Of a DNA stretch of 64,000 nt, positions 45,772 to 63,959 are shown in pieces. The position numbers and the translations under genes were made by a program. Origin of the DNA: Serinicoccus marinus DSM 15273 (lineage in GTDB: Bacteria > Actinomycetota > Actinomycetes > Actinomycetales > Dermatophilaceae); contig NZ_CP043808.1 in assembly GCF_008386315.1 (NCBI RefSeq), positions 1,488,001-1,552,000 of the forward strand, given 5' to 3'. Position 1 is the stretch's first letter; every line of letters starts with the position of its first letter. The notes under the pieces are model-generated. The model ran no database searches. It was not told where the DNA came from and saw only the letters and a program-made list of their open reading frames with translations.

Positions 45772-46404
45772 ATGGGAGCACTTCAGCTGGCCCGCGGGCC
45801 GCTCACCGAGGACGAGCTGGACGCGTGGTACGCCCTGCCCGAGGACCACCCGGCCGACACGGCCTGGGTGCGGGGCAGCTTCATCGCGACGCTGGACGGC
45901 CGGGCCACCGGCCCGGACGGCCGCAGCGGTGGGCTCAACGAGGGCTCGGAGGGTGATCACGCCGCCTTCGAGGCGGGGCGCCGCTGGGCAGAGGCGGTCG
46001 TGGTCGGTGCCGGCACCGCGCGGGCGGAGGGCTACGCGCCGCTCGAGGGGTGTCTGCTGGTCGTGGTGACGCGGTCCGGCGACGTGCCGGCGTCGCTGCG
46101 CGACCACCCGGACGTCCTGGTGGTCGGCGGCGACGGCGAGGACGTCGGTCCCGAGCGTGTCCTGGCGGCGATACGTGACCGCGGGCTCCACCGGGTCGTG
46201 GTCGAGGGTGGCTCGGCCCTCTTCGGCCCGTGGGTCGCGGCCGGAGCGGTCGACGAGCTGTGCGTCACGGTCCGGCCGGTGCTCGCCGGTGGCGAGGCTC
46301 CCTCGCTGGTGCCCGCGGACGTGCAGCTCCCCCAGCTGGTCGGCGAGGCCACCCACCTCATCGAGTGGGACGGCGACCTGCTCCTGCGGACCCGGCTGCG
46401 CTGA
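45772..46404 (+). CDS. RibD C-terminal-type pyrimidine reductase family protein
   Basis: A 210-residue NADPH reductase-like protein of the dihydrofolate-reductase/RibD-C fold: WVRGSFIATLDGRATGPDGR, EAVVVGAGTARAEGYAPL, HRVVVEGGSALFGPWVAAGA and the terminal LVGEATHLIEWDGDLLLRTR. It has no deaminase domain, so it is not full RibD; such stand-alone reductases may act on riboflavin-pathway pyrimidines or other substrates. GGAGAGGG precedes the ATG. A related reductase module is fused to GTP cyclohydrolase II at the right edge of the window. Confidence 0.85.
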   Translation: MGALQLARGPLTEDELDAWYALPEDHPADTAWVRGSFIATLDGRATGPDGRSGGLNEGSEGDHAAFEAGRRWAEAVVVGAGTARAEGYAPLEGCLLVVVTRSGDVPASLRDHPDVLVVGGDGEDVGPERVLAAIRDRGLHRVVVEGGSALFGPWVAAGAVDELCVTVRPVLAGGEAPSLVPADVQLPQLVGEATHLIEWDGDLLLRTRLR

Positions 46405-52787: not shown

Positions 52788-54705
52788 TCACCCCGTGACG
52801 CCTCGGACGACCCGCACGCCTGTTGGCACCGACGCGAGCAGGGGGAGGGCGATGACGGTGCAGCTGAGCGCAGCCACGGTGACGGGATGGACGACGGGAG
52901 CGGTCGCACCCAGCAGGCCGATGCTGACTCCCAGGACTCCCGGCAGGACCGTCACGGCGCCGATGAGCCAGGCCGCGGTCCCCGTGGCGAGGGACTCGAG
53001 GAGCACCATGGCCACGAGCTGCCGAGGGGTCGCACCCGTGCGGTGGAGCAGGGCCAGCTCACGGCGACGGCCGGCCGTCGTGAGCACCAGGGTGTTGGCC
53101 GCCCCGAGCGCCACGAACGCCAGCAGCATGAGCAGCAGCCACGTCCCCAGGCGTTGCTGAGCCGTCCCTGGCGCGGTCGACGTCGCGACGACGTCCTCGG
53201 TGGTCGCCACCGGCAGGTCCAGGGCCTCGATCTCGGCGGCGAGGCGCTCGGTGCTGGTCGGCCCGCCCGACGGTCCGCCGACGAGGAGGGTCGTCGGTTG
53301 CTCCGGTGCGCCGTGGTCCCGGGCGGTGGACCCACCGATGAGGTACGGGCCCAGGCCCAGCCCCCGGTCGAAGACCGCGACGACCCGGAACGTGTGCTCA
53401 CCGTCGGGAAGGCGCACCTGCAGGTCCTCGCCGACGCGGGCGCCGGTCTCGAGCGCGGCGTCGGAGCTGACCGCGATCGTGTTCGGGGCGGAGCGACACC
53501 AGCGACCCGTCGGACACCCCGGGGTCCAGCAAGGAGGCGGGCGCGTCCGGGGAGACCACGCGCATGGTCACCGTCTCCCAGGCCAGTCCGGCGAGGTCCT
53601 CGTCGTCGGTCCGGACCTGGGCCGGGGTGCTGGACAGCACCGTGGTCTCGTGGACGCCCGACATCGCGGCGACGCGCTCGGCGGTGCCCGCGGGCAGCGG
53701 CGACCCTGCGCCGACGACCAGGTCTCCGCCGAGCGAGGCGGCGAGCTGACGGTGGGCGGCCCGCTCCACGGCGGTGTCCGTGCTCGTCTGGATGACGCCC
53801 GTCGACATGACGAGGGCGAGCGGCACGACGACCGCTGCGAGCCGTCGCGAGAAGCCCCGCAGGTTGTCCATGGCCAGCTGCGTCGGTGGATGCCGGTGGC
53901 CTCCCAGCAGGGGCGTCAGGGCGTCGACGGACCAGGCCACGAGAGCCGGGCCGGCGAGGGCGGCGGCGCCGAGGAGGAGGAGGGCCGACGAGGCCGCCAC
54001 CGCGCTGCCGATCACCCCGGGGAGGACGAGGGGCGTGAAGGCCGTGGCCAGCCCGAGTGCCGCGGTGCCGATCGCAGCGATCCGACGTCCCGTTCCGAGC
54101 GGGCCCTCCTCGACGGCGGAGTCGCGGACGGCGGAGGTCGCGGTCTGGCGGAGGGTCTCGCGCGCCGCCAGCCATCCCGCGGCCAGTGCGGTGGGCAGGA
54201 GCACCACCACGGCGCCGAGGACCGGCAGCGGCGAGAGAGCCGGCCGCGAACCCGGCACCAGCAGCCCGGCGTCCACGAGGACAGGAGTCAGAGCCTGGGC
54301 GAGCGCCAGCCCGGGCAGGGCTCCGAGGGGCACGGCCAGCAGGCCGACCTGGAGGGTCTCCCTGGCGATGATGCCCCGCACCTGTGCGCGGGTCGCCCCG
54401 ACGGCACGCAGGAGGGCGAACTCCGGTCGGCGCCGGCGCAGGGCCAGGGACACGGTCGTGGCCACGACGACGAGGACCACGACGAGCGCGGTTCCCGCGA
54501 AGGAGGAGGCGAGGATGGTGAGCTGGGCTCCGGCGAGCGCCCCGGGCGACAGCGGGTCGCCCGTGCCGGCGCGGACGCCGGTCTCGAGGAGGACGCCCGT
54601 GAGCGTGAGCAGGGTGGCGGCGAGTCCGAGGGCGAGAGCGGTGCCGATGAGCCCGCCGCGATGCGCGCGGGCGCCGGCCCTGGCGAGGGTCCACATGGCG
54701 CTCAC
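52788..54705 (-). CDS. FtsX/MacB-type ABC transporter permease, one frameshift
   Basis: About 638 residues with two FtsX-like blocks. The N-terminal half has SLALRRRRPEFALLRAVGAT then RAQVRGIIARETLQVGLLAV and several membrane helices. A large extracytoplasmic region lies around residues 340-520. The second block has NTLVLTTAGRRRELALLHRT then GATPRQLVAMVLLESLATG. The frame breaks near 53488 inside the external region, where one extra C separates SDGSLVSL from PNTIAVSSDAALETG in the other frame. The GTG start overlaps the ATPase stop (GTGA). Likely an exporter or efflux system for peptides or lipids controlled by the adjacent two-component system. Confidence 0.85.
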
Positions 54706-55454
54706 CGGCCGATCGCGAGGAGGCGGGAGGTGACCTGCTCGGCACTGGCGCCGGTCTCGTCGTGGACGACCAGGCCGTCGGCGAGGTACAGCACCCGGTC
54801 CGCGGTCGCCGCGACCTGGGCGTCGTGGGTGACGATGACGACCGTCTGGTCGAACCGGCGCGCGGTGGCAGCGAGCAGGCCGAGGACGTGGGCCCCGGTG
54901 CGGGAGTCCAGGGCGCCGGTGGGCTCGTCGGCGAACACGACGGCGGGACGGGCCACGAGGGCCCGGGCGATGGCCACCCGTTGTGCCTGTCCACCGGACA
55001 GCTCACCAGGGCGCCGCCCCACGAGGTCGGCGAGCCCCAGGGCGTCGACGAGCTGGCCGATCCAGTCCGGGTCGGCCTCCCGGCCGGCGAGGACGAGGGG
55101 GAGACCGATGTTGTTCAGCACGCTCAGGTGGGGGATGAGGTTGTAGGACTGGAACACGAACCCGATGTGCTCCCGGCGGTACCGGGTGAGGTCGTCGGCG
55201 GAGAGGCCGGTGGTGTCGTGGCCGCCGATGACGACCCGTCCGGAGGTCGGCACGTCGAGGCCGGCGGCGACGTGGAGGAGGGTGGACTTGCCTGACCCGG
55301 ACTGGCCCACGACGGAGGTCATGGTGCCCGACGCGAGGTCGAGGGTGACCCCGCGCAGGGCAGCCACGGGTCTGGCGCCGCCCGGATAGGTCTTGTGCAC
55401 GTCGACGAGACGAAGCGCTGTGGAGGTGGTGACGTCGTACGGAAGGGTGGGCAT
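54702..55454 (-). CDS. ABC transporter ATP-binding protein (MacB/LolD type)
   Basis: A 250-residue ATPase. Motifs are Walker A VVGQSGSGKSTLLHVAAGLD, Q-loop FVFQSYNLIPHLSVLNNIGL, signature GELSGGQAQRVAIARAL, Walker B AVVFADEPTGALD and H-loop VIVTHDAQVAATADRVLYLA. The sequence is of the LolD/MacB/FtsE class that partners FtsX-type permeases. ATG at 55454 is preceded by AGGAG about 11 bases upstream; a GTG at 55493 is possible. It lies 75 bp downstream of the response regulator on the same strand. Confidence 0.92.
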   Translation of the reverse strand: MPTLPYDVTTSTALRLVDVHKTYPGGARPVAALRGVTLDLASGTMTSVVGQSGSGKSTLLHVAAGLDVPTSGRVVIGGHDTTGLSADDLTRYRREHIGFVFQSYNLIPHLSVLNNIGLPLVLAGREADPDWIGQLVDALGLADLVGRRPGELSGGQAQRVAIARALVARPAVVFADEPTGALDSRTGAHVLGLLAATARRFDQTVVIVTHDAQVAATADRVLYLADGLVVHDETGASAEQVTSRLLAIGR

Positions 55455-55528
55455 GGCGGTGATGGCTCCTGGTCGAGGGGGATCGGTCACCATCGACGGT
55501 AGGGAGCGGGGGAGGGCGGGACGAGCCG

Positions 55529-56247
55529 CTAAGGATGGAACCGCGGGGGTTCATCCTTTGGATGGAGGGCCGGCCGGTCCGGGGTGCCGCCCACGGTGAC
55601 GAGCCCGGTCTGGTAGGCCCAGACCACCGCCTGGAGGCGCGAGGTGACACCGAGCTTGGGCATCATCCGGGCGAGGTGGGACTTCACGGTGGAGATCTCC
55701 AGGACGAGGGTGCGAGCGATCTCCTCGTTGGACAGGCCCTCGGCCAGCAGCAGGAGGATGTCGGTCTCACGGGGGTGAGGACGTCGCTGGCCCGCGCCGC
55801 GGTGACGGGGAGGGTGCGTCGGCGTCCACTCAGCTCGCCGATGACGCGGCGGGTCAGACCGTCGGTGATGGTGCCGTGCCCGGCGGCGACCGAGCGGACG
55901 GCCGCGATGACCTCGTCCGGCTCCGCGTCCTTGAGGAGGAAGCCGGAGGCGCCCGCGTCGAGCGCCCCGAAGAGGTGCTCGTCGGTGTCGAAGGTCGTGA
56001 GGATGAGGACGGGGATGGGGGGCGAGGCGTCGGGTCCGGCGAGCTCCCGGGTGGCGGCGACGCCGTCGAGACGGGGCATCCGGATGTCGAGGCACACGAC
56101 GTCCGGATGCTCGGTCCGCGCCCGCTCCACCGCCTCGACGCCGTCGGCCACGGCTGCGACGACGTCGATGTCCGGCTCGGAGGAGAGCAGCGCCGAGAGA
56201 CCGGCCCGCACCAGGGGCTCGTCGTCGGCCACGAGGATGCGGATCAT
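55529..56247 (-). CDS. NarL/LuxR-family response regulator, one frameshift
   Basis: About 239 residues when repaired. The receiver domain (1-120) reads MIRILVADDEPLVRAGLSAL with phosphoacceptor Asp in VVCLDIRMPRLDG, and conserved Thr and Lys in LILTTFDTDEH and FLLKDAEPDE. The frame breaks in a C5 run near 55770; adding one C restores LTPRETDILLLLAEGLSNEE then IARTLVLEISTVKSHLARMM, the LuxR-type DNA-binding HTH. It overlaps the histidine kinase stop by four bases and probably activates the downstream ABC genes. Confidence 0.88.
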
Positions 56248-57505
56248 CCTCCGTGCCCCGGGTCCGGGTGGTCGGTGCCGGCCTGCGCACCGGGAAGGGA
56301 CAGGTCGACGCACCACCCACCGTCCTCGGTGGGGCCGTAGGAGAGGTGGGCACCCGTGAGGCTGGCACGCTCCCGCATACCCACGAGACCGTAGCCCGTG
56401 CCCGGCGATGTCGGAGCGTCAGCCGGAGCCGGGTGGTTGACCACGCGGACGCGGGTCGTCCGTGCGTCCCGGGTGTCGAGGACGACCTCGCACCGCGCGC
56501 CGGGGGCGTGCCGGGCGGCGTTGGCCAGCGCCTCCTGCACGGTCCGGTAGGCGCCGAACTGAGCGAGCGGACCCGACCGGCCGTCGAGGACGTCGCCGGG
56601 CCCGGGTCCGAGCACGGTGAGCTCGACGTCGGTGCCGGCTCGCCGCGCGCCCTCGACGAGGGCCGGGAGGGAGGAGAGGGTCTCCGGGGCGGTGGCGCCC
56701 GTCGGGCCGCCGTCCTCCCGCAGCAGGGTCACGAGGCTGCGGAGGTCGCGCAGCATGGCCTTGCTCTGGTGCCGCACCTGCTCGACGGCCCGCTTCGCGC
56801 CCTCCGGATCGGTGTCGATCTGGCGGCCCAGGGCACCGGTCATGACGGTGATCCCGGAGAGATGGTGTGCGGCGATGTCGTGCAGCTCACGAGCGGTCGC
56901 CGTCCGTTCCCGTGCGACGGCGACCTGCACCAGGGCGTCGTGCTCGCGGACGACGGCCTGGGCCTGCTCCGCTCGGGCGGTGACGACGTCGCGGCGGGCC
57001 CGGACGAACACGGCGGTGGCCAGGGGGAGGCCCACCGTCCCGACCCCCTGCACCACCGACGAGCCCAGGACCGCGAGGACGGCGCCGGCCTCGCTCCAGG
57101 ACACGAACGCCTGGGCCGAGCCCACGAGGAACGCCGCGGCAGCGGCTGCCGGCAGCGCCCGGACCACCCCCATGAGCAGGACGGCGGCGAACGCCGCGAC
57201 GATGACCGCCACGGAGGTGACCCCGGTGCCCGCGTCCATTCCCGCGAGCGCCGCCGCCGGGGCGCCGGCGGCGACGAGCACCAGGACGGACCGGGGGGCC
57301 CGTCGCCGCCGCAGCAGGACGAGCGCTGGACCGACACGAGTGCGAGTCCCGCCCACCAGGCCGCGCCTGCCACCGCCGGGAGCGAGTCGGCGGAGGCCGG
57401 CTCGCCCGCAGCGAGGAGCGGGAGGCAGAGCAGCACCGTCACGCTGAGGCCCCAGGAACCTGCGGCGACGAGGGCGTCGACGGTGCGGACCGGGTGCCTC
57501 GTCAT
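56244..57505 (-). CDS. Sensor histidine kinase (HisKA_3 / NarX type), one frameshift
   Basis: About 420 residues. The N-terminal half contains several membrane helices (VLLMGVVRALPAAAAAAFLV). The dimerisation/phosphoacceptor region is ARERTATARELHDIAAHHLS, with His in ELHDIAAHH, and the ATPase domain has EALANAARHAPGARCEVVLD (N-box) and GTGYGLVGMRERASLTGA (G-box). The frame breaks near 57330: one missing base separates AWWAGLALVSVQ from [21 protein letters not shown] 144-bp gap upstream probably holds the promoter for HK-RR-ATPase-permease; no specific box was recognised there. Confidence 0.88.
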
Positions 57506-57649: not shown

Positions 57650-58579
57650 TCACCCCTCGCGCCGTCGATGGCGGGCCAGACCGGCTTCGCGCCACCGGGG
57701 CACGACGCGCACGGCCAGGATCGCGGCACCGGGGAGCGTGGAGAGCAGCGCGAGGATCCCGTAGCCGATGGAGACGGTGACCCCGGTGCCCATGTCGAGC
57801 CCCCGCACCATGAAGATCCACCCCGCGGCGGCCTCACGCGTCCCCCACCCGCCGACCGTGACGGGGACCGACATCGCCGCGACGGACACGGTGGCGAGCC
57901 CCGGTGCCAGGGACACCTCCACGTCGGGTGCCACGACGACGACGGCCAGCACGAACATCCCGACGAAGGCGGCCCACCCGGCGACCGACAGCAGCAGGAC
58001 GAGGGCGAGGTCCCGCAGCGGCAGCACCCGCAGCCACCTCCAGGCCACGGCCGCGGTGACGACGCCGCCGGCCAGGCAGGCGACCCCGACCAGCGGGACC
58101 GGGCCCAGCAGGGCCACCGCCGCCGCGACCAGCACCACCGTGGTCCCCACCAGGCGCTCGGCGGCGACGGCGGCGAAACCGCTGGCCAGCGCGCGCCGGC
58201 CGTCCGGCGCCTCGGCGTCGCTGCTGTCGTCGGCCGCACGGAGCGCGTCGCCGGCGACTCCTCCGGGCAGCACGCTGTTGAGGAAGGCGGCCTGCCAGCA
58301 GCGGGCGACGGCCGGACCCACGGGGAGGGAGATCTGGAGGTGCCGGGCGACGAGCCGCCAGCGCAGCGCCTGGAGCACCACGCCGGCCGCCCCCAGGCCG
58401 AGGCCGGCCACGACCGCCCACCAGGGCAGGGCACGGGCCGCGGAGGTGAAGGGGCTGAGCCCCCACTGCGTGACGACGAGGCCGAGCAGGCCCAGGGTGA
58501 GCCCGACCTGCAGCGTCGCACCGACCACGAGGCGGACGCGCCGGGGCCGTGGCCGGCTGGCGACCAGGGTGTCGCTCAC
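57650..58579 (-). CDS. UPF0104 (LPG synthase transmembrane region-like) membrane protein
   Basis: A 309-residue polytopic protein of the aglD/UPF0104 flippase-like family. About eight hydrophobic segments are visible, with VLQALRWRLVARHLQISLPV, NSVLPGGVAGDALRAADDSS, FAAVAAERLVG and VTVGGWGTREAAAGWIF, which are the conserved motifs. There is no catalytic lysyltransferase domain, so it is not MprF itself. Relatives in glycolipid pathways are thought to move or accept lipid-linked products. The GTG start overlaps the methyltransferase stop (GTGA). It is the last gene of the seven-gene operon. Confidence 0.85.
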   Translation of the reverse strand: MSDTLVASRPRPRRVRLVVGATLQVGLTLGLLGLVVTQWGLSPFTSAARALPWWAVVAGLGLGAAGVVLQALRWRLVARHLQISLPVGPAVARCWQAAFLNSVLPGGVAGDALRAADDSSDAEAPDGRRALASGFAAVAAERLVGTTVVLVAAAVALLGPVPLVGVACLAGGVVTAAVAWRWLRVLPLRDLALVLLLSVAGWAAFVGMFVLAVVVVAPDVEVSLAPGLATVSVAAMSVPVTVGGWGTREAAAGWIFMVRGLDMGTGVTVSIGYGILALLSTLPGAAILAVRVVPRWREAGLARHRRREG

Positions 58580-59433
58580 CGGCTCCGCGGCGCCGCCCCG
58601 GCGCCCTCGTCGACGGGCTCGGGCGGCAGGCTCAGCAGGTCGAGGTGGCCGACGCGCGCCCGGAGCGAGCCGGCCTCGAGCTGGAGCGACCGCTCCTCGA
58701 GCCACCCCTGCACCACGGGAGCGAGCCCGGGGTCGTGCTCCACCGCCACCGCGGCGCGGTCGTGGAGATACCGGCGCAGGAGCGGCTCGTTCTCGGTGCC
58801 CAGGAGCCAGTCCGTCGCCCGCAGCTCCACGCGGGCGCCGCGACGGCGCAGGGCGCGGGCCATCACCTCCGCGGCGTCCGGCCCGGGCCGACCCTCCCTC
58901 CGCTGGTGCGCGTCGAAGGCGGTCGTGACGACCGCGTCGGCGGGGTGGCCCGGCGTGAGCACGACCTCGCCCGTGACGGTGAGGCTCAGCAGTGCAGCCG
59001 CTCCGGGCGCCGCGTCCGGTGCGACCACGTGGGCGAGCGTCTCGATCTCTGCCGCGGACAGCAGGTCGAGCAGGGCTGCGCACGCGAGCAGGGCCGTGCC
59101 GTCCTGCGGGACCAGGGAGGGCAGGTCCTCCACGGTCGCGACGGCGCGCTCGGTCGTGATGCGGTCGTCGGCCCCGGTCGAGGTCTCGTGCTCGAGCAGG
59201 TCGGCGTCGTGGTCGACCAGGACCCACCGCTGGTGTCCGGGCAGGCGCGGTGCGAGCCAGGCCTGGTTGGAACCGGTGCCGGCCCCCACGTCGACCACCA
59301 CGAGCTCGTCGACCCCGCGGGCGCGCAGGTGGTGGGTCAGCAGCTCCAGCAGGTCGAGGGCGTCCTCGCGGGCGCGGTGGTCGGCGCGGCGTCGCAGCGC
59401 CAGCCAGTCGGCCGGGACGGGACGGGCTACCAC
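58576..59433 (-). CDS. SAM-dependent methyltransferase-like protein
   Basis: About 285 residues. A class I SAM-binding fold is indicated by ELVVVDVGAGTGSNQAWLAP (motif I) followed by RWVLVDHDADLLEH (acidic residue binding the ribose) and LLACAALLDLLSAAEIETL. The C-terminal part has LRRRGARVELRATDWLLGTE. GTG at 59433 overlaps the glycosyltransferase stop by seven bases; a GTG at 59472 would extend further into that gene. It probably methylates an intermediate of the operon's product; acceptor unknown. The fold call is firm, the activity inferred. Confidence 0.75.
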   Translation of the reverse strand: MVARPVPADWLALRRRADHRAREDALDLLELLTHHLRARGVDELVVVDVGAGTGSNQAWLAPRLPGHQRWVLVDHDADLLEHETSTGADDRITTERAVATVEDLPSLVPQDGTALLACAALLDLLSAAEIETLAHVVAPDAAPGAAALLSLTVTGEVVLTPGHPADAVVTTAFDAHQRREGRPGPDAAEVMARALRRRGARVELRATDWLLGTENEPLLRRYLHDRAAVAVEHDPGLAPVVQGWLEERSLQLEAGSLRARVGHLDLLSLPPEPVDEGAGAAPRSR

Positions 59434-60496
59434 CGCAGAGCCCGGGTGAAGTCCGTCGCGGTCGTGGCCCACCCACGGAGTCTATCCCGGTGGGCCGACG
59501 CGCCCGCCCGCCAGGCGCGCCTCAGGCCCTGGTCGTCGAGCCACCGGGCCAGGGCCGTGGACCAGGCCTGCGGGTCGGCTCCGTCGACCGTGGCTCCGGC
59601 CGGGGGCAGACCGTCGCGCTCGCCCGACCCGTGCAGCGCCTCGACGGCCCCCGTCCGCGCAGGGACCAGCGCCGGTATGCCGTGCGCCAGCGCCTCGGTC
59701 ACCACCATCCCGTAGGTCTCGGCGCGGGAGGGCAGGGTCAGGAGGTCGGTGGCGCCCCAGATCTCCTCGAGGTCCTCGCCGCGGCACGGGCCCAGCGCCC
59801 GGACGCGGCCCTCGAGCTCGGCCGAGCGCTCCCGTACCGTCGCGACGTAGCCCTCGTCCGGGCCCTGAGGCCGACGAGGGAGGCGGTCCAGGGGCGGTCC
59901 ATCAGCGTCCGCAGCGCGTCGAGCAGGACGAGCGGGTTCTTGCGGGCGGTGACCGCGCCGAGGAGGAGCAGGTGCGGGGGAGTGCTCCCGGCCGCCGGCG
60001 GCGCCAGGTCCACGCCGGGAGGCACGGAGCGCACCCCGGCGAGCCCGTAGCGGCGCAGCAGGTCGTCCCGGGCCCAGTCGCTGGTCGCCACCACCGTGCC
60101 CGCGGCGTGCAGCGCGGCCCGCTCCGTCTCCTCCAGAAGTCGGCGCTCCGGAGCGCTCGTGCCGCCCTCGGCGGGCAGCGGCAGGTGCACCAGCACCGCG
60201 ACCCGGACGCCGTGCGCACGGGCCCACGCGAGCTCCTCGGGTGCGGCCGACCCGATGATCCCGTCGACCACCACGTCGGTATACCGTCCCAGCGCCTCGC
60301 GCAGCGCCGACCGGTCAGGCTCGGCCGGTCGGGGCCACGCCCCGGGCAGTCGCTCGACCGCCACCGCGAGCCCTCGGGCGTCGAGCTCGCGGACGACCCG
60401 GTCGTTGTAGTGGTTGCCCCCGCTGGGCCCGGCGAGGTCTCCGGGCAGGATCAGCGCCCGCGACGGACCCCGCTCACGAGCGGAGGTCGAGGTCAT
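59427..60496 (-). CDS. GT4-type glycosyltransferase, one frameshift
   Basis: About 357 residues when repaired. The acceptor side has ALILPGDLAGPSGGNHYNDR then VVRELDARGLAVAVERLPGA. The donor side has LLLLGAVTARKNPLVLLDAL, and after the break EIWGATDLLTLPSRAETYGM then VVTEALAHGIPALV, the typical E-x7-E donor motif. The frame is lost near 59872; one missing base restores VGPQGPDEGYVATVRERSAE. ATG at 60496 overlaps the upstream pterin-synthase-like gene by 23 bp. Within the operon it would glycosylate the pathway intermediate. Confidence 0.82.
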
Positions 60497-60854
60497 ACGT
60501 CACCCAGGCCTGCGGATGCTCGCGCACGACGACCCCGATGCCGTCGATGGCGGGGTCGGCGCGGTCGGCCAGCGCGTGCGCGACGTGGGCCGCGACGGCC
60601 TCGGTCGTGCTGAGCCGGCCGGCGAACGCGGGGTGCTCGTCGAGGTTCTGGTAGCGCAGCGGGTCGAGCACCGCGGCGAGGTGGCCGCCCGCCTCGCCGA
60701 TGTCCACCACCACCCCGTGCTCGTCCAGCTCGCGTCGGCGCCAGGTGGCCTCGACGACCAGGGTGGCGCCGTGCAGCCCCTGGGCCGGCCCGAAGAACGG
60801 GTCGGGCAGGCTGTGGGCGATCATGACGTGGTCGCTGACGGTCAGTCCGAACAT
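60474..60854 (-). CDS. 6-pyruvoyl-tetrahydropterin synthase-like protein with altered active site
   Basis: A 126-residue member of the PTPS/QueD T-fold family: DHVMIAHSLPDPFFGPAQGL then HGATLVVEATWRRREL, GVVVDIGEAGGHLAAVLDPL, LSTTEAVAAHVAHAL and VREHPQAWVTYD. Relative to PTPS/QueD, the catalytic Cys before the HGH motif is absent, HGH is HGA (one zinc histidine lost), and the LDH motif is LDP. The zinc site and proton relay are therefore incomplete, so normal PTPS or QueD chemistry is doubtful. It starts 15 bp after the dehydrogenase ends. Confidence 0.8.
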   Translation of the reverse strand: MFGLTVSDHVMIAHSLPDPFFGPAQGLHGATLVVEATWRRRELDEHGVVVDIGEAGGHLAAVLDPLRYQNLDEHPAFAGRLSTTEAVAAHVAHALADRADPAIDGIGVVVREHPQAWVTYDLDLRS

Positions 60855-60869
60855 CGTGCTCCTCGTGGG

Positions 60870-61894
60870 TCAGGGGTGTCGGGCGGGGGCGTCGGTCTCG
60901 GGGTCCTGCGCGTCGGGGTAGGACAGGACGACGCACCCGGAGAGGTCGTCGTCGTGCTCCAGCTCCTCGAGCGCTGCGGGCATGGCCGGGAAGGGTCTGA
61001 CCCCGGCGAGGAGGGTCTCGAACGCGGGGTCGGACAGCAGGTCGAGGGCCGTGGCGAGCCGGGCCGCCGGGTCCCGCCGGTGGCGGCGGGCGTCACCGAC
61101 CCTCGAGACCTGGCTGGCGACCAGCCGCAGCCGGCGGGAGTGGAAGTCCTCGCCGAGCGGCACCTGCGGTGCGGGGGAGCCGAACCACGACAGCTCGACC
61201 ACGTCGGCGTCGTCCCCGGCGAGGGCGAGCGCCAGCGCGAGGCCCGGCTCGCTGGCCGAGGCGTGGAAGACCAGGTCGCAGTCGTCCAGCGCCTCCTCCG
61301 GCGGCACCGCGTCCAGGCCCGCGTCGACCAGCTCCCGGCGCCGGGTGGCGTCGGCCTCCACCACCTGGAGACGGCTCAGCGGGAAGCGGCGCAGGAGCAG
61401 GGCGAGGGCTCCGCCGATGAGCCCGGCGCCCACGACGGCCACGCGGTCGCCCACGCAGGCGGGGCGTCCCAGAGGGCGTTGAGCGCCGTCTCGGTCGGGC
61501 CGGCGAGGACCGCGCGGGACGAGGGCACGTCGTCCGGGACCCGGGTGAGGGCCGACACGGGCACGACATACCGGTCCTGGTGCGGGTGCAGGCAGAACAC
61601 CCGCACCCCGACCCACGCGCGCGGGCCGCGCTCGACCACCCCGACGGAGAGGTAGCCGTACTTCACCGGGAAGGGGAAGCCTCCTTCCTGGAAGGGCGCC
61701 CGCATCCGGTCGACCTGCGAGTCGGGCACGCCGCCGCGGCGCACGAGCAGCTCGGTGCCGCGGCTGATGCCGCTGAACGACGCCCGCACGAGGGCCTCGT
61801 CCGGGCCCGGCTCCGGCAGCTGCTCCCGGCGCAGCTCGCCCCGACCCGGCGCGGTGGCCCAGTAGGCCAGGGCCGTCCCGGCTCCGCCGCTCAC
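60870..61894 (-). CDS. MDR-family (zinc-binding-like) dehydrogenase, one frameshift
   Basis: About 341 residues. The N-terminal GroES-like part has [20 protein letters not shown] then [15 protein letters not shown] and [18 protein letters not shown]; instead of the catalytic GHE of alcohol dehydrogenases it has KYGYLSVG, and no structural four-cysteine zinc loop is seen. After the frame break near 61464 the Rossmann part reads [20 protein letters not shown]. These features suggest a redox or dehydration enzyme without a canonical zinc centre. The GTG start overlaps the CDP-alcohol transferase stop (GTGA). Confidence 0.8.
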
Positions 61895-62610
61895 CCGCGC
61901 GCCTCGAGGTCGACGACGTCGCGCGCGAACGAGGCCGTGAGCGCTGCCAGGGCGACGGCGGTGCCCGCTGCGGCGAAGGGGGCGGGCACGACCGGCACGA
62001 GGGCGACCCACAGGGCGATGCCCTGGACGGCCGCGACGGTCCGTCGCGCCAGGCTCGGGGTCAGCTCTCCCCGCAGGGCCGGCCGCACCCAGGAGGCGAG
62101 CACGAAGAGGTAGCGCATGGCGCCGATCGCCACGACCCACCAGCCCAGCGTCACGGCCGCCAGCACCGACAGCACGAGGAGCAGGGCCGCGTCGGACTCC
62201 ATGTCCAGCCGAGCCCCGGCCGCGCTCGCGGTCCCGGTCGCGCGGGCGAGCCACCCGTCGACCGCGTCCAGCAGCAGCGCGGCGCCGACGACCAGGGCGA
62301 CGGCCCAGGTGCGGGCCGGCAGCTGGCCGGCGAGGACGAGCACGGTCGCGGTCCCGACCACACCCGTCAGCGCGACCCGGGCGAGGGTGACCACGTCCGG
62401 CGGGCTCACCGCCGCGGGACGACGCCGCACCAGCGCCCCGGTGGCCACGACCGGCACCACCAGGCCGGCGGCCACCGCGAGCACCCCCACACCGACACCG
62501 GGCCCCACCCGGGTGACCACCCCCACGCACAGGGCCAGGGGGAGGAGGACGACGGCCGAGCCGACCACCCCGCCGCCGCGGAGCCGCGTGGCGGGCGCCT
62601 GCGCCGACAT
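61891..62610 (-). CDS. CDP-alcohol phosphatidyltransferase
   Basis: A 239-residue membrane enzyme transferring a phospho-alcohol or phosphatidyl group from a CDP-linked donor. The family signature DxxDGxxARx8GxxxDxxxD is complete in [18 protein letters not shown] followed by [12 protein letters not shown]. About six membrane helices surround it, with one N-terminal to the motif region and the rest after. Start and stop overlap both neighbours (ATGA, GTGA). Its placement with a pterin-type enzyme and a glycosyltransferase suggests formation of a lipid- or phosphodiester-linked product rather than ordinary phospholipid synthesis. Confidence 0.88.
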
Positions 62611-63959
62611 CAGCTGGCGTCCGGGACGTCGGCGGCCAGCGCCGAGGGCACGGCGCCCCGGCGCCGCAGGTCCAGCTCGGTGACCATGTCGTCGCCGAGC
62701 TGGTAGCGGCGCGCGGGCGGGCGCAGGGCGTCCGAGAGCAGGTCCTCGCCGGCGACGCGCAGCCCCGGTACGCCGTCCCCGATGAGCACGGGTGCGGTGG
62801 TGAGGTAGAGCCGGTCCACGGTTCCGGCCCGGACGAAGGCCGACACCAGCCGCCCACCACCCTCGACGAGCACCCGGTGGAGACCGCGCGAGGCGAGCAG
62901 GTCGAGCACGGCTCGGGGCTCCATCGGCCCGTCGTCGGGCCAGCGGAGCACCTCGACGTGCTCACCCACCGGGCCGAGGGGGGTGTCGCCCCCGAGGACC
63001 CACAGCGTCGGCGCCGCGCCGTCGGTGAGCACCGAGGCGTCGGCCGGGGTCACGCCGCGCGGGTCCAGCACGACGCGGACGGGGTTCGACCCGCGCACCG
63101 CTCGGACCGTGAGGCGGGGGTCGTCGCAGGCCACGGTGGCCGCGCCCACGACGACCGCGTCCACGAGGGCGCGCAGCCGGTGGAGGTGCTCCCGGTCCTG
63201 CTCGCCGGTGACGAACGCGGCGTCGCCGGTGCGGCTGGCGATGAAGCCGTCGAGGCTCTGGCCGAGCTGGGCCAGGACGAGGGGGCCGCCGGCCCGGTTG
63301 AGGTGGCCGTAGCGGTGTCCGAGCTCACCGGACGCCGGGATCCGCCCGGCGAGCAGCTGCTCCCACTCGTCCTGGTCCGCCTCGTCGTGCCCCATCCGCG
63401 TCCGCTTGGTGGCCAGGTAGAAGGCGTTCTCCTCGCGGTCCGGGACGACGAGCGGCACCCGCTCCACGACCTCGATCCCGAGAGCGCTGAGCGCCAGCTC
63501 CTTGGCCGGGTTGGACGACAGCAGCCGGACGCGTCGCATCCCGAGGTCGAGCAGCATCGCGGCGCAGTGGTCGTAGGTGCGGGCGTCCGCGGGGTGCCCG
63601 AGGGCGAGGTTGGCGTCGACGGTGTCGACCCCCCGGTCCTGGAGGGCGTAGGCCCGCAGCTTCTCGCCGAGGCCGATCGCCCGGCCCTCGTGCCCGCGGG
63701 CGTAGACGACGGCGCCCCGGCCGGTTCGGGCGAGGAGGTGCAGCGCCTGCTGGAGCTGCTCGCCGCAGTCGCAGCGGCGGGACCCGAGGGCGTCCCCGGT
63801 GAGGCACTCGGAGTGCACCCGCACGAGGGGCGGCGGGAGGTCCGGGCCGTCGTCGTCGGTGACCCCGAGGCTGAGGACGACGTGGTCCATCCCCGTGTCG
63901 TCGCGGTATGCCGTCATCCGGAAGGTCGCGTGGTCGGTCGGGAGCCGGGTGTCAGCCAC
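62610..63959 (-). CDS. GTP cyclohydrolase II fused to RibD-type reductase domain
   Basis: About 449 residues. The first half is a GTP cyclohydrolase II: zinc cysteines in [20 protein letters not shown], then [40 protein letters not shown] and [20 protein letters not shown]. The second half (about 225-430) is a pyrimidine reductase: [60 protein letters not shown]. The usual DHBP synthase (RibB) and RibD deaminase are absent, so this is not a canonical riboflavin enzyme. Substitutions such as HEGRAIGL for QEGRGIGL and SSNP for TNNP hint at altered product. GTG at 63959 is the first start visible; the true start could lie beyond the edge. Confidence 0.85.

Follow-up and report, generated by a model that had tools for sequence, protein, structure and literature searches.

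A conserved, mobile gene cluster of Serinicoccus marinus predicted to lead from GTP to a pyrimidine or pterin glycoside that is often joined to a phospholipid

Seven genes on the minus strand of the Serinicoccus marinus DSM 15273 genome, at positions 57650-63959 of the 64,000-nucleotide stretch analyzed here ("the window"; contig NZ_CP043808.1, positions 1,488,001 to 1,552,000), make up a cluster whose nearest known counterparts start from GTP. One such system is the archaeal ArfA/ArfB entry into riboflavin and its counterpart in Sinorhizobium, in which a formyl-retaining cyclohydrolase and then a deformylase lead to 2,5-diamino-6-ribosylamino-4(3H)-pyrimidinone 5'-phosphate (below, the diaminopyrimidine), the compound that we propose the cluster also makes. 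BrbF of Sinorhizobium meliloti, a creatininase homologue first annotated as a creatininase, deformylates 2-amino-5-formylamino-6-ribosylamino-4(3H)-pyrimidinone 5'-phosphate (PMC9478397). These routes feed riboflavin, whereas the putative deformylase of clusters related to that in the window sits among glycosyltransferase (GT), methyltransferase (MT) and lipid genes, and the window itself has none. The deazapurine and biopterin pathways, with QueD and 6-pyruvoyl tetrahydropterin synthase (PTPS), likewise place the Pfam PTPS T-fold in a GTP-derived pathway, but the T-fold protein of the cluster has lost the catalytic Cys, Asp and His and one zinc His, and entry is by the cyclohydrolase RibA, not by FolE. 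The RibD-type reductases (6p8c, 2azn) belong to the same family as the cluster reductase and share its DDPRLT motif, whereas the cluster enzyme is fused to the cyclohydrolase and lies outside a riboflavin operon.

A further known counterpart of the cluster is SCO6650 to SCO6655 of Streptomyces coelicolor. Among solved structures, that of SCO6650 (3d7j, E 8.7e-29) is closest to the T-fold protein, and SCO6655 is annotated as a GTP cyclohydrolase II. Since their spacing of five fits the gene order on plasmid p1 of the near relative Streptomyces fungicidicus (T-fold, GT, MT, LPG_synthase_TM membrane protein (LPG_TM), creatininase, RibA), the S. coelicolor genes are likely orthologous to the cluster, the comparison being one of gene numbers, and from the same spacing we infer that SCO6652 is the MT. 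SCO6650 is reportedly free of zinc and of PTPS activity, and SCO6655 is said to have been assayed and to stop at the formylated product, with Met in place of a Tyr as the cause. The Streptomyces type combines a RibA lacking this Tyr with a creatininase and has a divergent CDP-alcohol phosphatidyltransferase (CDP-OH), whereas the window has a Tyr-type RibA fused to RibD_C and no creatininase. In two expression studies, SCO6655 is among genes most of which rise in stationary phase (PMC2853524), and the log2 ratio of second to first mycelium for SCO6652 is 0.8 at 24 h, 4.3 at 48 h and 4.1 at 72 h (PMC3610822); subject to the numbering deduced above, this agrees with a specialised product. The original prediction recognised no characterised pathway with this gene set, and among the papers listed by full-text searches of the open-access literature, none likewise describes the cluster or its product in its title or the opening of its abstract; earlier notice of the S. 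coelicolor genes, outside that literature, is likely.

Based on the comparative data presented herein, we regard it as nearly certain that the cluster is real and conserved. We further propose, with moderate confidence and from enzyme families and motifs, that the seven genes are one biosynthetic unit, which would convert GTP to a glycoside of a 2-amino-pyrimidine or pterin, often joined to a phospholipid. The seven families named in the original prediction, all on the minus strand, were recovered by Pfam search and by reading of the open reading frames (ORFs) of the window, in this order of transcription:

62610..63959, minus strand: GTP cyclohydrolase II-RibD_C reductase fusion, 449 aa (Pfam, motifs), with the cyclohydrolase part at about 63387-63944 and the reductase part at about 62676-63287
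61891..62610, minus strand: CDP-alcohol phosphatidyltransferase, 239 aa (Pfam, complete catalytic motif DGxxAR-x8-GxxxDxxxD)
60870..61894, minus strand: MDR dehydrogenase, BchC-like, split by a 1-nt deletion (relatives in L024 and L051, predicted fold)
60474..60854, minus strand: PTPS-like T-fold protein of the SCO6650 type, 126 aa (Pfam PTPS, profile alignment)
59427..60496, minus strand: GT4-family glycosyltransferase, split by a 1-nt deletion (Pfam GT4 and GT1 halves)
58576..59433, minus strand: class I SAM-dependent methyltransferase, 285 aa (Pfam, predicted structure)
57650..58579, minus strand: UPF0104/LPG_synthase_TM flippase-like membrane protein (Pfam, same-genus relative)

The Pfam E-values are 4.7e-59 (GTP_cyclohydro2) and 4.9e-38 (RibD_C) for the fusion protein, 5.4e-13 for CDP-OH_P_transf, 9.3e-22 for PTPS, 2.3e-06 for Methyltransf_25 and 1.8e-21 for LPG_synthase_TM. 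Five of the six junctions are as previously read (GTGA between CDP-OH and MDR, a 15-bp gap between MDR and PTPS, overlaps of 23 bp between PTPS and GT and of 7 bp between GT and MT, and GTGA between MT and the membrane protein), while the first, between the RibA-RibD fusion and CDP-OH, is TGATG with a 1-nt overlap and not the ATGA that had been claimed. Upstream, no riboswitch was matched in Rfam at E up to 0.1 (L003 8500-12000).

A genome-neighbourhood search, which the original prediction had named as its check, finds the cluster families together in other genomes more often than chance would allow; the outcome named beforehand as a refutation, a lack of co-occurrence, did not arise. Among genomes of the family, 19 of 59, that of the window included, hold a relative of the T-fold protein. 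By tblastn, all 18 others have MDR and GT beside or near this gene, while CDP-OH, LPG_TM and the RibD part are each detected in 14 and MT in 8; several of the absences fall on short contigs. Across 396 genomes of the phylum, the T-fold profile matches 80 at E 1e-10, of which 10 score at least 121 bits, followed by a gap to 91 bits. The CDP-OH profile at E 1e-20 matches nine of the 396, all among these ten, and in eight of the nine the gene lies within about 3 kb of the T-fold gene (on another contig in G066). The MDR profile matches 47 of the 396 at E 1e-40, eight of them at 463 bits or more, to which we add the window copy as pieces of 231 and 219 bits; these nine are also all among the ten, on a threshold (460 bits or more) chosen after the scores had been seen, the next best being 288 bits. 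G086, the remaining one of the ten, matches the T-fold profile in part, lacks a CDP-OH match and has an MDR that scores lower.

Of 591 relatives confirmed by scanning 84,980 species genomes, we kept the best 80, which biases the composition counts toward window-like sequences; these 80 loci belong to Actinomycetota (54), Alphaproteobacteria (22), Gammaproteobacteria (1), Bacteroidota (2) and Myxococcota (1). The cluster of L053, a Thermoleophilia (Solirubrobacterales) metagenome-assembled genome, is almost identical to that of Microbacterium L052 and is likely a misbinned contig. With the 17 shorter loci left out, the 63 loci of at least 16.2 kb contain MDR in 63, GT in 61, MT and CDP-OH in 50 each, LPG_TM in 41, RibD in 38 and RibA in 36, all eight core families being present in 19 and seven in 15, in an order that differs between loci. 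Accessory families in the same 63 are an AlkP-type enzyme (21), an FkbM methyltransferase (13), creatininase (11) and cytochrome b561 (11), the last in 11 of the 20 long Proteobacteria loci; the accessory models each started from one plasmid protein. The core family models were built from the loci in which they were counted; as a check, the separate rib locus L004 gave RibA and RibD matches only, and elsewhere in the window the models matched one further RibD_C and two further GT stretches.

The first step is the best supported. The RibA part of the window fusion scores above the cut-off for TIGR00505, has the zinc-binding Cys motif and carries a Tyr, within LRAYALQD, at the position of E. coli GTP cyclohydrolase II Tyr105. 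This Tyr is present in 47 of 59 cluster RibA sequences, and none of these 47 loci has a creatininase; the other 12 have Met (6), His (3), Leu (2) or Ile (1), with a creatininase nearby in 10 of them. The same 13 creatininase loci were recovered by tblastn among all 106 loci, and ten further loci, including the sister systems L134 and L136, have Tyr without creatininase (8) or Met with creatininase (2). On the RibA tree, loss of the Tyr and gain of the creatininase are one change each (L090 and L130 left unscored for creatininase). The window, with a Tyr-type RibA and no creatininase, does not have the combination of the formyl-retaining route, namely a non-Tyr RibA with a creatininase. We propose that the cluster very probably converts GTP to the diaminopyrimidine, judging from these residues, and that both front ends probably reach this same compound.

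The reductase suggests the direction taken next. Pfam finds only GTP_cyclohydro2 and RibD_C in the 449-aa fusion, and no RibD deaminase domain, and the RibD_C part keeps the DDPRLT and HLHRLRA-type motifs of solved 2,5-diamino-6-ribosylamino-pyrimidinone phosphate reductases; some clusters carry a different subtype of RibD_C (DNPRLL). In bacterial RibD, deamination precedes reduction. Because the cluster reductase has no deaminase domain and resembles the diaminopyrimidinone phosphate reductases, the 2-amino group should stay and the precursor should be of the pterin type, not the lumazine type; formation of a ribityl chain by this enzyme is likely. Elsewhere in the genome lie a separate RibA/RibD pair (2640-2643 kb) and FolE (421 kb). 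RibB, RibE and RibH are not among the seven genes (RibE and RibH were not looked for at the 2640-2643 kb pair). A third RibD_C-family reductase of the genome lies outside the cluster, at 45865-46314 of the window.

The T-fold protein, 97% identical between the window and its Serinicoccus kin, departs from PTPS in specific residues. When it is profile-aligned to 2g64, 3i2b and 1b66, another sequence stands in place of the Cys-containing loop, with HGA for HGH and xYxNLD for DHxNLD (GPAQxLHGAT and YRNLD); the third zinc His is Ala in 25 of 25 T-fold sequences, and Glu112 is invariant in the same number. Relative to the Cys-Asp-His triad (motifs CxxxHGH and DHxNLD), the three zinc-ligand His and the pterin-anchoring Glu of PTPS, the earlier label of PTPS-like holds for the Pfam fold and the anchoring Glu and fails for the triad and one zinc His. 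PTPS and QueD were rejected as identities because the catalytic triad and zinc site are incomplete, and we predict that the protein works like a pterin- or pyrimidine-binding T-fold enzyme. Annotated plasmid records that label the gene a 6-carboxytetrahydropterin or 6-pyruvoyl tetrahydropterin synthase, in most cases with a queuosine term, are contradicted by these residue differences. None of the seven genes encodes QueE, QueC or FolE, the first two of which were looked for at this locus only. Of the more distant sister T-folds, those of L131, L132, L133 and L135 keep HGH, and with it three zinc His, without the catalytic Cys, and L134 and L136 have HSH and HHH at that site. Lone SCO6650-like T-fold genes are found on Streptomyces linear plasmids (L042, L048, L148, L155, at about 10.0 kb), beside BTAD regulators, cupins and MEKHLA-domain genes.

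The remaining enzymes are less specific. Read in pieces, the window MDR has no Pfam match above cut-off, and its intact L024 relative has a sub-threshold BchC match; GxGxxG is present, and the usual zinc-ligand Cys was not seen. The predicted structure of the MDR protein from Serinicoccus chungangensis has the MDR fold (mean pLDDT 90), with RspB, HpsP and sorbitol-type dehydrogenases as best matches, and both it and that of the MT (mean pLDDT 94) match broad families. On the lipid side, the CDP-OH catalytic motif is complete, with D115, D118, G119, A122, R123, G132, D136 and D140 invariant in 18 sequences, and the UPF0104 protein consists of the LPG_synthase_TM region, Pfam finding no MprF-type C-terminal aminoacyl transferase domain. 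The AlkP-type enzyme of relatives has an N-terminal part that seems hydrophobic by eye and invariant ESYG and GDHQ motifs, an arrangement typical of LtaS/EptA-type transferases; its Pfam match, to Sulfatase, is sub-threshold. In Nocardioides L099 (4748-7210), a single 821-aa frame holds CDP-OH followed by the AlkP-type enzyme, which links the two steps.

Sister relatives (MDR about 220-290 bits, T-fold 44-91 bits) form a smaller cluster. Six of seven such loci hold RibD, MDR, T-fold and GT, two of them also RibA, and L137 has MDR alone; in L131 (8215-11250), the one sister locus read further, the next gene is a methyltransferase. The sister systems L131 to L136 are possibly an older form of the same pathway. 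Since these loci and those of certain Methylosinus and Rhodobacterales plasmids are without CDP-OH, we regard RibD, MDR and the T-fold protein, usually with GT and MT, as the core, and the lipid genes as a frequent addition.

We now put forward a hypothetical pathway. In the window, the cyclohydrolase would open GTP to the diaminopyrimidine, a step we grade as well supported; in Streptomyces-type clusters the same compound would probably be reached by a formyl-retaining cyclohydrolase and a creatininase-type deformylase. The RibD_C enzyme, by its family and motifs, would then reduce the ribose to a ribityl chain before any deamination; the 2-amino group would thereby be retained, and the flow would turn away from riboflavin toward a pterin-type scaffold. 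In the third step the zinc-free T-fold protein may hold the 2-amino-4-oxo-pyrimidine by its invariant Glu and, together with the MDR acting on a side-chain hydroxyl, close or rearrange a second ring. The GT4 enzyme would add a sugar and the MT a methyl group. Finally, in a step that is common and not universal, the CDP-alcohol transferase would link a phosphatidyl group to the product through its hydroxyl or phosphate, the UPF0104 protein would carry it across the membrane and the AlkP-type membrane enzyme, where present, would modify it outside. The original prediction, a reduced aminopyrimidine or pterin made from GTP and then glycosylated, methylated and attached to a lipid, is borne out in so far as the families are conserved together and the cyclohydrolase, reductase and CDP-OH motifs are intact; its lipid part is not general, as CDP-OH and LPG_TM recur in clusters but CDP-OH is in 50 of 63 long loci and was not found in the sister systems. 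That the lipid is attached to the same molecule that carries the GTP-derived ring is, in our estimate, about as probable as the contrary. A further extension, possible but doubtful, is a new class of membrane lipid with a GTP-derived reduced 2-aminopyrimidine or pterin glycoside as head group, brought to the outer leaflet by UPF0104 and modified by the AlkP-type enzyme; in Proteobacteria, with their recurrent cytochrome b561, such a lipid could serve as a membrane-bound redox carrier. What is at stake is a conserved mobile pathway across unrelated phyla from whose enzymes we predict a lipid that absorbs UV and may be redox-active. Such a pathway would account for the odd GTP cyclohydrolase of Streptomyces, with its reportedly formylated product, for which the cluster would supply a deformylase, and for the persistence of a zinc-free PTPS relative.

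Several findings weigh against the proposed pathway or parts of it. The match between Tyr loss and creatininase is one event and not independent replication, because each trait changes once on the RibA tree. No creatininase was seen in two non-Tyr loci of Nocardiopsis, L090 and L130, whose contigs each stop near 10.6 kb; L072, the nearest relative of L130, has its creatininase at 11.1 kb, beyond the end of the L130 contig. This explanation is weak for L090 because L087, its nearest relative on the MDR tree, runs to 16.4 kb with neither creatininase nor RibA. Among the 13 creatininase loci, RibA was not seen in 3 (L086, L113, L114), and RibD is absent by tblastn from the sequence stretch in 10. 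The creatininase of the Streptomyces cluster has MftE as its best match and ArfB as a weak one, neither reaching the cut-off, so its role is putative, and two more distant BrbF homologues failed to complement (PMC9478397). The L087, creatininase-without-RibA and weak-ArfB results weaken part of the front-end argument and leave the standing of the window's Tyr-type enzyme unaffected. Further, 38 other genomes of the 396 match the MDR profile at E 1e-40 (288 bits or less); the MT and MDR models point to no substrate; and 4 of 20 plasmid records with a T-fold match hold it alone, on Streptomyces linear plasmids, two of them nearly identical. CDP-OH and LPG_TM were not found by the family models in the seven sister loci, nor in the Methylosinus and Rhodobacterales plasmid loci (no CDP-OH within 10 kb). 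Lastly, the window's own copy of the cluster has two broken frames.

Any alternative must account for the same gene set. One that we consider unlikely is a split GTP cyclohydrolase I, in which RibA opens GTP and removes formate, the zinc-free T-fold protein performs the Amadori rearrangement and ring closure to give a dihydroneopterin-type phosphate, and RibD_C, with its DHFR-like fold, reduces the pterin and not the ribose, before glycosylation, methylation and lipid attachment. The T-fold protein, which keeps the anchoring Glu in 25 of 25 sequences and has no full zinc site, would suit it, as zinc is needed only for the first steps of cyclohydrolase I, and so would the absence of RibD_C from 10 of 13 creatininase-type loci, since ribose reduction would then be dispensable; RibD_C and DHFR0 proteins are also described as hard to distinguish (PMC1971073). 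Against this, the DDPRLT and HLHRLRA-type motifs are common to the solved diaminopyrimidinone phosphate reductases, RibD_C is present in all 6 of 6 sister loci that have the T-fold gene, and the genome already has FolE. Rather improbable, too, are two co-regulated modules with two products, a soluble pterin glycoside pathway (RibA, RibD, MDR, T-fold, GT, MT) and a separate module for a lipid head group (CDP-OH, LPG_TM, AlkP-type enzyme). Such a division would explain the loci without lipid genes (Methylosinus, Rhodobacterales plasmids, sister systems), the frequent divergent transcription of CDP-OH and the IMPase-like phosphatase in 9 of 106 loci, but the CDP-OH subfamily was never found without a T-fold gene in the nine of 396 genomes that have it (E 1e-20), and in the window its gene lies between those for RibA-RibD and MDR with overlapping ends. 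Chance juxtaposition of riboflavin or folate housekeeping genes with cell-envelope genes, to which only the RibA and RibD families themselves would point, was rejected as highly improbable, given the separate RibA, RibD and FolE of the genome and a patchy cluster (T-fold in 19 of 59 family and 10 of 396 phylum genomes) whose members are kept together in many orders and settings.

The MDR and GT genes each carry a 1-nt frameshift, which the original prediction did not note, and are not single open frames. An alignment with the S. chungangensis locus (L051), at 89% identity over 6385 bp, shows three gaps in the window: one base near 61458 in MDR, one near 59873 in GT and 24 bp of the spacer near 60870. 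In the same-genus genome L024 neither gene is interrupted, and L051 has an open MDR and one single model match for the GT. The two frameshifts are probably assembly errors, not gene decay, and a noisy assembly is suggested because a neighbouring response regulator is likewise split, its receiver and HTH domains lying in different frames (53398-56368). Regulated frameshifting was rejected in view of the open genes of L024, the single-base gaps relative to L051 and the broken response regulator. In the same interval, 53398-56368, the frame of an FtsX-type permease also seems broken, and single-base gaps seem present in the assembly.

The cluster is mobile and is also carried on plasmids. In 16 of 20 plasmid records with a T-fold match, the T-fold gene adjoins MDR, and on the MDR tree the window and its kin stand next to Microbacterium sequences that include a mobilizable 59-kb plasmid. 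A phage origin was rejected: a phage collection gave no tblastn match, and viral contigs gave no relative with a single-protein query, which is sensitive to close relatives only. Among 4346 ORFs searched for recurrent neighbours, five groups of which were examined closely, the largest groups are ABC ATPases (14 loci), SDR proteins (12) and the IMPase-like phosphatase (8, or 9 with a profile). This phosphatase, which could remove the 5'-phosphate, is found in Rhodobacterales and Actinomycetes (for example L104:6129-6932, L101:12657-13463 and L152:6171-6974) and, beyond the nine loci, on a Palleronia plasmid. Ribokinase/PfkB-type kinases adjoin two Rhodobacterales clusters (L050:7834-8754 and L152:11997-12887).

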